Origin: Haematomicrobium sanguinis DSM 21259
GTDB taxonomy: Bacteria > Actinomycetota > Actinomycetes > Actinomycetales > Micrococcaceae
Direction: 5' to 3'
Assembly: GCF_000688395.1 (NCBI RefSeq)
Contig: NZ_JIAG01000003.1
Coordinates: 186,001 to 250,000 of the forward strand
DNA length: 64,000 bases
This document shows positions 8,992-51,286 of the stretch, in pieces. The position numbers were made by a program, and so were the translations under genes. The notes below the pieces were generated by a model. That model was not told the origin of the DNA. It was given only the letters and a program-made list of their open reading frames with translations, and ran no database searches. Every line of letters starts with the position of its first letter. Position 1 is the first letter of the stretch.

Positions 8992-10206
8992 ATGTCCTCC
9001 ACCCTGATCACGAACATTGGCGAGTTGACGACGGTCACCTCGGAGACTCTGCGCGATGCCGCGCTGGTGGTTGACGGCGGCACCATTGCGTGGATCGGTG
9101 CGGCGAGCGCGGCCCCCGCGGCGGACGAGATGTACGACGGCGATGGGCTGGCAGTTCTGCCAGGCTGGGTTGATAGCCACACCCACATGGTGTTCGACGG
9201 CGACCGCGCCGAAGAGTTTGTGACACGTATGGCCGGCGGGGAATATGCCGCCGGTGGCATTAACGTGACGGTGGCGGCAACCAGGGCGGCCGGTGCCGAG
9301 CGGTTGCGGAAGCTCGTGTCGTCGCGGGTGAGCGCGGCGGCCGCTCAAGGGACCACGTTCCTGGAAACCAAAACCGGGTACGGGCTGGATGTCGCCACCG
9401 AACTGCTCAGTGGCGAGGTGGCTAGTGAATATGCCGATACCGTGACATATTTGGGCGCGCATGTGGTGCCAACCGGCATGGACGCGGACGAATATGTTGA
9501 TCTGGTGATCGGTCCCATGTTGGACGCGGTCCGTCCGTACGTCCAGTGGATTGATGTGTTTTGCGAGCGCGGCGCTTTTGACGAAGAACAGTCCCGCAGC
9601 ATCCTCCAAGCTGGAAAAGATGCCGGGTTGGGAATACGTGTACACGCGAATCAATTGGGAGAAGGAGCGGGTGTGCAACTGGCCGTGGAAATGGGGGCGG
9701 CCAGTGCAGACCACCTGAACTACCTGAACGATCGCGATTATGAGTCGCTTCGGTCAAGCTGGGACGGGTGGAGCACGGATGGCGCGGCTGGTGTACCCGG
9801 TACCGTCGCTACCGTGCTCCCTGCCTGCGATCTCTCAACCAGGGCACCACTCGCTCCGGCTCGGCAGCTCCTGGATGCAGGGATACCGGTAGCCATCGCG
9901 AGCAATTGCAATCCCGGGACGTCCTACACCTCATCCATGCCGTTCAACGTCGCGACCGCGGTGCTGCAGTACCGGCTCACCATCGAGGAAGCGGTGCGCG
10001 CGGCGACCTACACACCGGCTGTGGCGCTCGGTCGGCACGCCCCGGTAAGTACCGCGGAAGGCGAGGTGCCCGCGGTGGGGAGCATCGCCGTCGGACATCA
10101 GGCCGATATTCAAGTGTTGGATGCGCCCTCGATCGCGCACCTGGCCTATCGGCCCGGAATGCCGCTCACCAAACGGGTCATGAAAAAAGGTGAGTGGATT
10201 CTCTAG
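8992..10206 (+). CDS. hutI: Imidazolonepropionase
   Basis: Hydrolyses 4-imidazolone-5-propionate to N-formimino-L-glutamate, the third Hut step. The 404-residue amidohydrolase has the metal-binding DSHTHMVF motif (about residues 61-68), a central HANQLG and the ADHL segment, followed by the C-terminal strand that re-enters the beta-sandwich (GHQADIQVLD). The ATG at 8992 lies 1 nt after the hutU stop; longer upstream in-frame sequence overlaps hutU and is not homologous. The fourth-step enzyme is not encoded nearby. Confidence 0.95.
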   Translation: MSSTLITNIGELTTVTSETLRDAALVVDGGTIAWIGAASAAPAADEMYDGDGLAVLPGWVDSHTHMVFDGDRAEEFVTRMAGGEYAAGGINVTVAATRAAGAERLRKLVSSRVSAAAAQGTTFLETKTGYGLDVATELLSGEVASEYADTVTYLGAHVVPTGMDADEYVDLVIGPMLDAVRPYVQWIDVFCERGAFDEEQSRSILQAGKDAGLGIRVHANQLGEGAGVQLAVEMGAASADHLNYLNDRDYESLRSSWDGWSTDGAAGVPGTVATVLPACDLSTRAPLAPARQLLDAGIPVAIASNCNPGTSYTSSMPFNVATAVLQYRLTIEEAVRAATYTPAVALGRHAPVSTAEGEVPAVGSIAVGHQADIQVLDAPSIAHLAYRPGMPLTKRVMKKGEWIL

Positions 10207-47995: not shown

Positions 47996-48010
47996 TTTCG
48001 CCGCATAGGT

Positions 48011-48048
48011 AAGGAGGTCGGGGAACCGTGAGTTCCCCGACCTCCTTT
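48011..48048 (+). terminator. Terminator after the alkaline phosphatase
   Basis: AAGGAGGTCGGGGAAC (48011-48026) pairs perfectly with GTTCCCCGACCTCCTT (48032-48047) across a 5-nt loop, ending in a short T run. Confidence 0.85.
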
Positions 48049-48151
48049 GCGTGTGCCCACCGTGTGATGCACGACGGCGTTGCTCGCCTGAATTGCGAAT
48101 GTCACCGCCCGCTCAAGTACTATGGCAAAGGCGCGTTTACCCGCGCGCCGC

Positions 48152-48225
48152 GGGGCTGTAGCTCAGCTGGTTAGAGCAGAGGACTCATAATCCTTTGGTC
48201 CTGGGTTCAAGTCCCAGCAGCCCTA
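48152..48225 (+). tRNA. tRNA with CAT anticodon (elongator Met or Ile2)
   Basis: A 74-nt cloverleaf with acceptor GGGGCTG/CAGCCCT, D arm GCTC/GAGC, anticodon stem AGGAC/ATCCT-type with CAT at 48186-48188, variable region TTGGTC, T arm CTGGG-TTCAAGT-CCCAG, and no encoded CCA. The CAAGTCC T loop and TTGGTC variable region are like tRNA-Ile2, which needs TilS lysidine; elongator Met is the alternative. Confidence 0.93.
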
Positions 48226-48432
48226 CTGATTTTTCCGTGTTGAAACGCTACATTTGCGTGGAGCCTCTGCCTATTCGCGACTTGGGGTGACTTATACCTT
48301 GAGTACACGTTCGCGTCTAGACAGGCGGACCATTTTTAAAACTGTTGGGCATCGCATGTTGACTTTTTGAGCCCCCCTGACACCGTTCAAGTGTCACAAT
48401 CGTGGCAAATTCAATCGATCCAAGGAGTCAAA
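48226..48432. promoter_or_regulatory. Leader region of the small secreted protein gene
   Basis: This 207-nt stretch is more A/T-rich than its surroundings and has no gene. It holds TTGACT (48359-48364) as a possible -35, and a dyad TGACAC (48378-48383) / GTGTCA (48391-48396) with 7-nt spacer that could be an operator. AAGGAG (48422-48427) is the ribosome-binding site of the next gene. Confidence 0.4.
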
Positions 48433-48735
48433 ATGAAGAAGAAAGTTTCGGGCGCATTTGCAGTGTTTGGTTTTCTCATCGCGTCCTTGGGATTTTCCAT
48501 TCCAGCGGCCAATGCGCAACCAGCTAGCACGGCCGGTTCGATGTCGATGGAGGCCTGTGAACAGCTCGCCATCAGCTACAAGTACGGACGCACGGCCATC
48601 CTCTGGAAATGTGGCGCGGAATATCATGGTCAAGTGCTAAATGGTTCGCCTGGCGATTTGATTTATCTCAACGTGGGTGGGAATGGCGCCGGAGGAGTTG
48701 TAATTCCGGCTGGCTCGAATACGGCCAACAGCTAG
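48433..48735 (+). CDS. Small secreted Cys-containing protein, possibly truncated by an in-frame TAG
   Basis: A 100-residue protein with a clear Sec signal peptide (MKKKVSG, hydrophobic core, cleavage after AANA near residue 29). The mature part has two Cys (MEACEQL, LWKCGAEY) and a Gly-rich end (NVGGNGAGGVV). The ATG at 48433 has AAGGAG 5 nt upstream. After the TAG at 48733-48735 the same frame stays open for 26 more codons (48736-48813), encoding SIAFGSAPAACVAF and DFCAIP with two more Cys, before a second TAG. So the intact form may have had about 126 residues and two disulfides, with the first TAG a recent mutation, or it may be read through. No known family recognised. Confidence 0.72.
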   Translation: MKKKVSGAFAVFGFLIASLGFSIPAANAQPASTAGSMSMEACEQLAISYKYGRTAILWKCGAEYHGQVLNGSPGDLIYLNVGGNGAGGVVIPAGSNTANS

Positions 48736-48816
48736 AGCATCGCGTTCGGGTCAGCGCCAGCAGCTTGCGTAGCATTCAATGATCGCCCAGGTGAGGATTT
48801 CTGCGCCATTCCGTAG
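48736..48816 (+). pseudogene. Possible 3' remainder of the small secreted protein gene
   Basis: In-frame continuation beyond the TAG at 48733-48735, ending at TAG 48814-48816. It encodes 26 residues with two Cys (PAACVAFND, EDFCAIP). No ribosome-binding site or start codon makes it an independent gene. Confidence 0.45.
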
Positions 48817-48910
48817 GCACAAAGTCAGCATGAATCGATTGGTGGTGGGTGTTTCCCATGGAGTGGGCAGCACCCACCGCTGTCACGAGTAGAAAGGTCG
48901 TTGGATTTTG

Positions 48911-50203
48911 GTGAGAAGGCTCGCTCTACTTGGGCTGCCAGTCCTGATATTGCTGTTGTGGTTGTTGGTCGTTCGTCCCCCCATCGCACTTGACTACGGC
49001 GTATATCGACTTGGCGCGTCAGCGATATTTGGTTTGAACGGCCTCGACGCGAATCTTTATGGACCCACCTTGGGTTACCCAGGTGCGCCCGGTCTGCCTT
49101 TTACTTACCCGCCGTTTGCAGCGTTGATATTTCTTCCGATCGCGTTGCTTCCGACAATGGTTGGGTTCACCATCCTGACACTGTGCACCGTTCTAGTTGC
49201 GTATTGGTTGGCAAAGACGTTGGCGTCAAGCGTGAGATCCTTATCGGGAAGCCCGAGAAACGGGAAACTCAAGGTGATTCTCATTGGACTTTGGGGCGGA
49301 CTAGCGATACTGTCCAGCGGACCTTGGCGAGACACCATTGACTTTGGGCAGATTAACGCCATTCTGCTCCTAATGTGCCTATGGGACCTTCTTGGGTCCG
49401 CGCGAGGGAACTCGAAATGGAATCGCTGGTCCGGCTTCCTCGTGGGCGTGGCAGCTGGTATCAAACTTACCCCGCTGGTGTTTGGCTTCTATTATCTGGT
49501 GCGTCGCGACTTCGCATCACTTGGTCGGATGATCGGAGGCTTCGCCACAACGGTTTTGGCCGCTTGGATTGTGGCGCCGAGCCTTTCGCAGGACTATTGG
49601 TTGAGTGTCATCCTCGATCCAGGGCGAATCGGGAACTTGGGGTATGCCGACAACACGTCAATTCGCGGGACACTCATGCACCTTGCTTTTCCCGCCGACC
49701 TAGTGACGACGTTGTGGGTAGCCCTCTCGCTGATATTGGCGGCCGTTGCGGGCCTGTGTATTTTCAAGACAAAAAAGCATGGCCCGTACGTCGGTGTTGC
49801 CTCAACGGCGTTGTTGATGCTCTTGGTTTCGCCAGTCACGTGGTCACATCATTGGGTCTGGTTGCCGCTGATTGCTTGGGGCTCATATGTACTGCTGTCG
49901 ACACAAAAACTGCCAAAAGTTCTTGGATGGACAACGGGTGTAATAACCGTCCTCATGGCAATCGCGTTCTGGATCTCACCGAAGTGGATAGCGTTTCTGA
50001 GCGGGTCCAACGCCGATGGTCAGATGAGCGAACTTTCGATGTTGCTGGTATCGATTGGTTCGATTTGTGCGTATCTGTTATGCGTACTGTGGGCATGCGC
50101 ACTTCTTGCATCCCGCCGAAGTTCGCTCGCGTACGATGGCCCTTTCGAATCGCCACCAACCCATGTAATCGTTCGTGCCGGTGGCGGTAGTTCTCCGCGA
50201 TAA
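48911..50203 (+). CDS. GT87-family (DUF2029) polyprenol-linked glycosyltransferase
   Basis: A membrane GT-C glycosyltransferase of 430 residues with about ten helices. It has the DUF2029 features of an early extracytoplasmic Asp (LDYGVYRLGA), FTYPPFAALIFLP after it, DFGQINAILLLMCLWDL, and GIKLTPLVFGFYYL. Relatives are mannosyl- or arabinofuranosyltransferases that use polyprenyl-phosphate sugars in the envelope. GTG 48911 is the likely start; a TTG one codon earlier is also open. By eye its codon use is less G/C-rich than neighbours, suggesting acquisition. Hairpin arms GGTGGGTG (48844-48851) and CACCCACC (48871-48878) lie upstream. Confidence 0.85.
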   Translation: MRRLALLGLPVLILLLWLLVVRPPIALDYGVYRLGASAIFGLNGLDANLYGPTLGYPGAPGLPFTYPPFAALIFLPIALLPTMVGFTILTLCTVLVAYWLAKTLASSVRSLSGSPRNGKLKVILIGLWGGLAILSSGPWRDTIDFGQINAILLLMCLWDLLGSARGNSKWNRWSGFLVGVAAGIKLTPLVFGFYYLVRRDFASLGRMIGGFATTVLAAWIVAPSLSQDYWLSVILDPGRIGNLGYADNTSIRGTLMHLAFPADLVTTLWVALSLILAAVAGLCIFKTKKHGPYVGVASTALLMLLVSPVTWSHHWVWLPLIAWGSYVLLSTQKLPKVLGWTTGVITVLMAIAFWISPKWIAFLSGSNADGQMSELSMLLVSIGSICAYLLCVLWACALLASRRSSLAYDGPFESPPTHVIVRAGGGSSPR

Positions 50204-50252
50204 AGTCAAATGCGCTGTATGCCCGGGTGGACTCCGCTTCGATTTCCTGGGC

Positions 50253-50423
50253 TTAGTTCGGCGTCCGATTCCGCCAGGCCGCCAGGTAGGCAACAATCGC
50301 GATGATCATCAGGATGCCGAGCACAATGGTGATCGGCGCGGGCCACGCAAAGGCGAAGGACAGCGCAAGCAACACGATCGAAGCCAGCGCGACAACCCCC
50401 AAGACTGTTGATTTGTTCTTCAT
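50253..50423 (-). CDS. 56-residue membrane protein coupled to the flavodoxin-like gene
   Basis: A small protein starting MKNKSTVLGVVALAS with two hydrophobic segments (about residues 7-25 and 29-47) and a polar end WRNRTPN. The ATG (50421-50423) overlaps the TGA stop of the upstream flavodoxin-like gene (ATGA), and AAGGGAG lies 5 nt before it, so it is very probably translated. Two-helix hairpin topology is predicted. No family recognised. Confidence 0.75.
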   Translation of the reverse strand: MKNKSTVLGVVALASIVLLALSFAFAWPAPITIVLGILMIIAIVAYLAAWRNRTPN

Positions 50424-51175
50424 GACATACTCCCTTGTCGATACTCCGGATTGGATTCAAAACCAAAGCGCGCGCCATTTTCCCACGCGGTGCGGTCATT
50501 GCCGTAAGCCGGATATCCGCCGGCGGCTTTGAGGATATGACTCAAGTGCATGAGGTTCCAGGACATGATGGTCACGTTGCGGTTGGTGAAATCATTATCG
50601 AAGCCGACCCGCGTACCGTCGCCCGCGACATCCCCGTAACTGGGGCCCGGGCCGATTTCGCCGATCCACCCGGCATCGGCTTGCGGCGGGATGGTGAAGC
50701 CAATGTGTTGCATCGAATACAGCAAGTTCATTGCACAGTGCTTGACGCCATCCTCATTGCCATCGATCAGGCACCCGGCTACTTTGCCATAGTTTGCTGA
50801 CTGTCCGAGCGAATTCAATTCCGCGGAATTGCTGTAGAGACGCTCCACGAGTTTCTTTGTGATGCTCGAATTGTCGCCAAGCCAGATCGGCCCGGCAATG
50901 ACCACGATGTCGGCAGACTGGACCTTTTTCGCAATCTCGGGCCACTCATCTCTCTCCCAGCCGTGTTCGCGCATGTCCGGATACACGCCGGTTGCAACGT
51001 CCAGATCCACAAAGCGCAGCGACTCGGTCTCTACCCCGGCACCTTCCATGATGGCCCGGCTCTTATCAATCAGCACCTGAGTGTGGCTCGGTTCGGGCGA
51101 GCGGGTCAACGTGCAGTTAAAGAACAGGGCAGTCAGGTCGCTGTAGTCCGGGGGAGTAGGAGACTCATCACTCAT
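50420..51175 (-). CDS. Flavodoxin-like/NAD(P)H-dependent FMN reductase family protein
   Basis: A 251-residue flavodoxin-fold protein. The first strand and FMN-phosphate loop read ALFFNCTLTRSPEPSHTQ, the second flavin loop IVIAGPIWLGDNSS, and the third GCLIDGNEDGVKH. Members reduce quinones or flavins or carry electrons. The start MSDESPTPP at 51175 is assigned from the fold boundary. Its stop overlaps the small membrane-protein gene downstream, which may tether or partner it. Confidence 0.82.
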   Translation of the reverse strand: MSDESPTPPDYSDLTALFFNCTLTRSPEPSHTQVLIDKSRAIMEGAGVETESLRFVDLDVATGVYPDMREHGWERDEWPEIAKKVQSADIVVIAGPIWLGDNSSITKKLVERLYSNSAELNSLGQSANYGKVAGCLIDGNEDGVKHCAMNLLYSMQHIGFTIPPQADAGWIGEIGPGPSYGDVAGDGTRVGFDNDFTNRNVTIMSWNLMHLSHILKAAGGYPAYGNDRTAWENGARFGFESNPEYRQGSMS

Positions 51176-51286
51176 GAAACCAACACTAGGCCAGTTTCCC
51201 CGCCGCGGTAAGAGTTCCCGGCAACGCGCCTTCCTCACCCCCAGACATGCTTGTGTTCCAGATCACAACGTGGCATTCTAAAGTCC

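Follow-up and report, generated by a model that had tools for sequence, protein, structure and literature searches.

GT87 glycosyltransferases are membrane proteins that use polyprenyl-phosphate sugars on the outer face of the membrane. One of them is PimE, a polyprenyl-phosphate-mannose-dependent enzyme of the PF09594 family, and it is to enzymes of this type that an intact gene at the locus described here can be likened. Upstream of that gene, within the 64,000-nt stretch of Haematomicrobium sanguinis DSM 21259 DNA that we analysed (the window), lies a small gene whose reading frame is interrupted by a TAG. The original prediction described a 100-residue exported protein that ends at this codon, with 26 further codons, two more cysteines and a second TAG in the same frame, and the sequence confirms this arrangement (Table 1). 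The signal peptide, placed by eye, covers approximately residues 1–28 of the 100-aa protein, and the cysteines of the read-through frame fall two and two, as predicted: Cys 42 and Cys 60 precede the stop, and Cys 112 and Cys 124 lie in the continuation. Our preferred explanation, which we regard as probable, is that the locus carries a gene for a small exported beta-sandwich protein with four cysteines, followed by a GT87 gene and located beside a tRNA-Met gene. The TAG at codon 101 of ~126 would be a nonsense codon, and the truncated product is most likely non-functional.

Table 1. Features of the interrupted gene and its neighbours, in window coordinates
Feature	Position	Strand	Remarks
tRNA-Met (CAU), upstream neighbour	48152..48226	+	follows the GT4 glycosyltransferase gene directly in most relatives examined
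Likely ribosome-binding site, AAGGAG	48422..48427	+	upstream of ATG 48433
Open reading frame before the premature stop, small exported protein	48433..48735	+	ATG 48433; 100 codons; Cys 42, Cys 60
Premature in-frame TAG	48733..48735	+	codon 101
Conserved C-terminal part with the probable original stop, TAG 48814-48816	48736..48816	+	26 sense codons; Cys 112, Cys 124; last two predicted strands
Predicted hairpin, 13 + 5 pairs, without a T run	48841..48881	+	between the small gene and the GT87 gene; 24 nt after the second TAG
Intact gene for a GT87 membrane glycosyltransferase of 431 aa	48908..50203	+	PF09594

Is the sequence beyond the first TAG coding? The openness of the 26-codon run is not remarkable by itself, since the chance of such a run is 0.36 at the local base composition. 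What the frame contains beyond chance, as judged by sequence comparison, is homology of its 26 residues to the C-terminus of an intact relative. A homologue search with the read-through product, proposed in the original prediction as the way to separate decay from readthrough, found one clear relative: a 117-aa protein (L003:1459-1812; E = 3.5e-21) from a genome of another genus of the same family, referred to here as G010. This protein has a signal peptide and no internal stop, and all four cysteines of the read-through product are conserved in it, in the same order. The two proteins are 44% identical over the alignment, with 11/27 identical positions in the signal peptide, 28/61 in the mature part before the TAG and 11/24 after the TAG, where the similarity extends through the pattern AACVAxxDRPGxDxC. 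The post-stop peptide, AACVAFNDRPGEDFC, aligns with AACVAVKDRPGKDWC of the homologue at a local score of 65. None of 20,000 residue shuffles of the peptide reached this score (maximum 45), and translations of this DNA in its remaining five frames score 16–22 against the homologue. The tail therefore already encoded protein in the common ancestor of the two genes.

Read from this alignment, the ancestral protein was ~126 aa long, and the TAG interrupts the frame as a nonsense codon, due either to mutation or to sequencing error. This reading draws on one comparison, that of a single homologue with the one genome of the genus. It falls on the decay side of the proposed distinction: the relative is full length and has no stop, and rather than ending at the first TAG it continues to resemble the window's frame downstream of it. 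Annotation that stops at the first TAG would miss the tail of what is apparently the real protein. The position of the predicted hairpin, 24 nt past the second TAG, is as expected if that codon were the original end, and the hairpin region is not unusually structured overall (z = -1.31; 23 of 200 shuffles fold equally well). No sigma-70-like promoter was found within 48000-50500.

Under a sequencing or assembly error, the TAG would be a miscalled base in a gene that the organism carries intact. We consider this unlikely. It would fit a frame that is otherwise perfect and a tail that is as conserved as the rest, and the sequence comes from a draft assembly of 27 contigs, with one genome for the genus. 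The assembly is nonetheless 99.99% complete and 0.01% contaminated, and the neighbouring GT87 frame is open, although neither of these points bears on one base.

Functional readthrough of the TAG, giving 100-aa and 126-aa forms, appears very unlikely to us. The tail is open and conserved, and is undamaged by additional stops or frameshifts, a state that low-level readthrough would account for as well. However, the only homologue found has no stop at the position of the TAG. Furthermore, the anticodon CUA is absent among the typed tRNAs (46/46; RF00005 matches, ARAGORN), a result that bears on a dedicated decoding tRNA and not on near-cognate readthrough, which needs no tRNA with that anticodon. 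TAG is also a normal stop here, and the commonest one in the window: it ends 19 of the 47 long mechanical open reading frames, a set that includes at least one wrong-strand frame, with TAA ending 15 and TGA 13. A C after the stop favours leaky readthrough, whereas the base after this stop is A. Since the homologue has no stop, no CUA tRNA was found and TAG is commonplace, our reading of the TAG is that it either breaks the gene as a nonsense codon or is a base-calling error. Hence, of the alternatives originally put forward, nonsense mutation or sequencing error is supported and readthrough is not, and a possible case of recoding becomes, most likely, one of ordinary gene damage. We consider it highly improbable that the 100-aa protein is functional in this shortened form: the ribosome-binding site and the 100 codons, signal peptide included, are intact, but two conserved cysteines and two predicted strands are lost.

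Those strands come from an AlphaFold2 model of the read-through product with a placeholder at the stop. From an alignment two rows deep, the model has pLDDT values of 84–95 in every ten-residue block across residues 41–127, the last of the protein. It has seven strands, two of which, 110–114 and 122–125, lie after the TAG. A protein terminated at the TAG would be 100 residues long and would lack both of these strands, the last in the prediction, as well as two of the four cysteines. The homologue is modelled as all-beta (mean pLDDT 79.1), and its matching tail has one strand of at least three residues (98–103) plus two-residue bridges. Fold comparison of both models returned mainly Ig-like beta-sandwiches with middling scores. 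The best single match for the homologue's model is the MspA porin rim domain 2v9u (Z = 8.4, rmsd 2.5, 80 aligned, 10% identity), which is absent among the best 50 matches listed for the window's own model. With Foldseek, neither model matched a PDB entry at E <= 0.001, the first row, “Formosin D” (9hkj), lying above that value, and a viral structure library gave no fold match at that threshold either (best 9.7e-3). The impression that the protein belongs to no recognised family is borne out by profile searches: the window's protein matches no family in Pfam, NCBIfam or PHROGs at E <= 10, the homologue matches none in Pfam or PHROGs, and a PDB sequence search returned no matches.

How widely is the small protein distributed? 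At E <= 0.01, 9 of 295 genomes of the family have a match, and the two real ones are the window's own genome and G010. The former is the sole genome of its genus searched (1/1), and G010 itself is the one match among four genomes of its genus. In a further sample, 25 of 395 genomes match at E <= 0.01, the real ones again being these two; at E <= 0.001, 3 of 394 genomes match, namely the own genome and two weak ones; and at E <= 1e-5 the own genome is the single match in each of two samples (1/396 and 1/149). The samples overlap, and G010 was presumably not drawn in those of 394, 396 and 149 genomes, where it is absent from the matches. Approximately 10 candidates per genome were scored in the 395-, 394- and 396-genome samples, so that homologues may have been missed. 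The weak matches that we dropped (7 in the 295-genome sample, 23 in the 395-genome sample and 2 in the 394-genome sample) all have E values of 1.4e-4 or worse.

Ten of the weak matches were examined as candidate homologues and rejected. Two are small exported proteins, L013 and L017, that match over the signal peptide (to profile positions 62 and 30, respectively) and lack the conserved tail. A third, L037, is a 556-codon frame whose match spans positions 2–45 only, signal peptide included, and the others are long, unrelated or unclear frames; L016 gave no readable frame. No further homologue was found in related-locus searches of genome contigs or viral contigs, or by tblastn of plasmids and phages. 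The locus adds an uncharacterised exported protein, adjoining a GT87 gene, that is seen in two genera and was not found in the other sampled genomes.

The product of the downstream gene matches PF09594 over the whole profile (E = 4e-49; 167.9 bits versus a cut-off of 25), and scores below the cut-off of the NCBIfam mannosyltransferase PRK13375 (148 versus 413 bits). A GT87 gene is also next after the homologue in G010, and its product is 35% identical to the window's over 382 columns. This shared neighbour is weaker evidence for a single unit than it might seem, because GT87 genes are common, with a match in 118 of the 295 family genomes at E <= 1e-20, and because closer relatives lack the small gene. 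The GT87 gene of the window has several nearer relatives (up to 45% identity) than the one in G010, and the small gene is beside 0 of 29 foreign GT87 loci, among the matches listed. In 30 loci taken from the GT87 search, a set that excluded the GT87 gene of G010 (L003) and the second GT87 gene of the own genome, the small gene occurs, among the matches listed in order of E value, only at the window's own locus. That the two GT87 neighbours are not each other's closest relatives weakens the idea of one acquired unit; it does not weaken the nonsense reading. The second GT87 gene of the own genome (G000:C4:76348-77499; 42% identical) lies ~210 bp from a tRNA cluster (Phe, Asp, Glu).

The genomic setting is as originally noted, with a tRNA gene beside the small gene and a patch of lower GC. 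In 500-base windows over 48000-50249, those touching the alkaline phosphatase gene excluded, GC is 0.52–0.57, versus an overall 0.62 in the window. The small gene has a GC3 of 0.57 and the GT87 gene one of 0.60, versus 0.82 for the alkaline phosphatase gene and 0.83 for an MFS transporter gene; the GT87 value is the lowest among the 47 long mechanical open reading frames of the window, the next being 0.62. The gene after GT87 (50420-51238) has a GC3 of 0.69, which counts against a sharp islet.

The tRNA-Met gene has a match in 58 of 59 genomes searched, own included. At 25 of 29 other loci (one per genome) the GT4 gene seen in the window is nearby, upstream and in the same direction at 24 of them and on the other side at L135. 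In the window, an alkaline phosphatase gene separates the GT4 gene from tRNA-Met. The small gene, the GT87 gene and the alkaline phosphatase gene were found at none of the 29 relatives' tRNA-Met loci, within up to 1.5 kb on either side. In one relative, what comes after this tRNA-Met is a different, apparently exported protein of 248 aa (L116:1948-2694), which suggests that the gene content of the site varies between genomes. The tRNA 3ʹ end has a single copy within the window, and we therefore claim no att site. The alkaline phosphatase (PF00245; 46283-47995) has a C-terminal stretch rich in Thr, Pro and Glu, and carries an LPDTG anchor of the sortase type. Past its gene, an inverted repeat with perfectly matching 16-bp arms around a 5-nt loop (48011-48047) is a likely terminator.

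In G010, the GC3 values of the pair are 0.50 and 0.51, versus 0.70 and 0.78 for two nearby genes and 0.87 for an insertion sequence (IS). Two identical copies of this IS (1445 bp, 100%), inverted and with a Mutator-type transposase, flank the pair. We rejected a composite transposon: a unit that had moved as one would show a target duplication at its outer ends only, whereas the two copies are flanked by 7-nt repeats of different sequence (GTTTCAG and GGAACCG, identified by eye), one for each copy, which indicates separate insertions. A 373-bp direct repeat (98.7%) lies to the left of each copy (L039:5919-6291 and 9833-10205), placing the small gene and GT87 gene inside a partly duplicated stretch. 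Overall, the pair looks acquired in both genomes.

What might the intact pair do? The intact small protein would be exported, and would act outside the membrane as a disulfide-bonded beta-sandwich, with the GT87 enzyme presumably acting in the same compartment. An intact pair may thus link an exported envelope or extracellular domain to a glycosyltransferase, and gene order in the two genomes points to the exported protein as a possible substrate or accessory of GT87. In the present genome, the intact GT87 enzyme may function alone. What we observe is the homologous tail, a GT87 gene next to the small gene in G010 as well, and low GC3 in the two genes of the locus; loss of function of the small protein, its recency, acquisition of the pair from outside and the role proposed for an intact pair are what we infer. 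It is extremely unlikely, in our view, that the genes are a rare mobile pair of a four-cysteine Ig-like exported protein and a mannosyltransferase dedicated to it as substrate or partner, with the stop serving as a natural switch, so that full-length product is made at a low level only.

A gene interrupted by a nonsense TAG, our preferred reading, can be set against three points of reference. The G010 homologue shares with the window's protein a signal peptide, four cysteines and a GT87 gene downstream, but has no internal stop, sits between two identical inverted IS copies and has a GC3 of 0.50. The modelled protein has an overall beta-sandwich, as do Ig-like domains in the PDB such as the MspA porin rim; at 10% identity to that rim, and with no Foldseek match at E <= 0.001, the likeness probably reflects a common arrangement. 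The downstream gene, while not reaching the PRK13375 cut-off, shares PF09594 with the PimE-like polyprenyl-phosphate-mannose-dependent enzymes of GT87.
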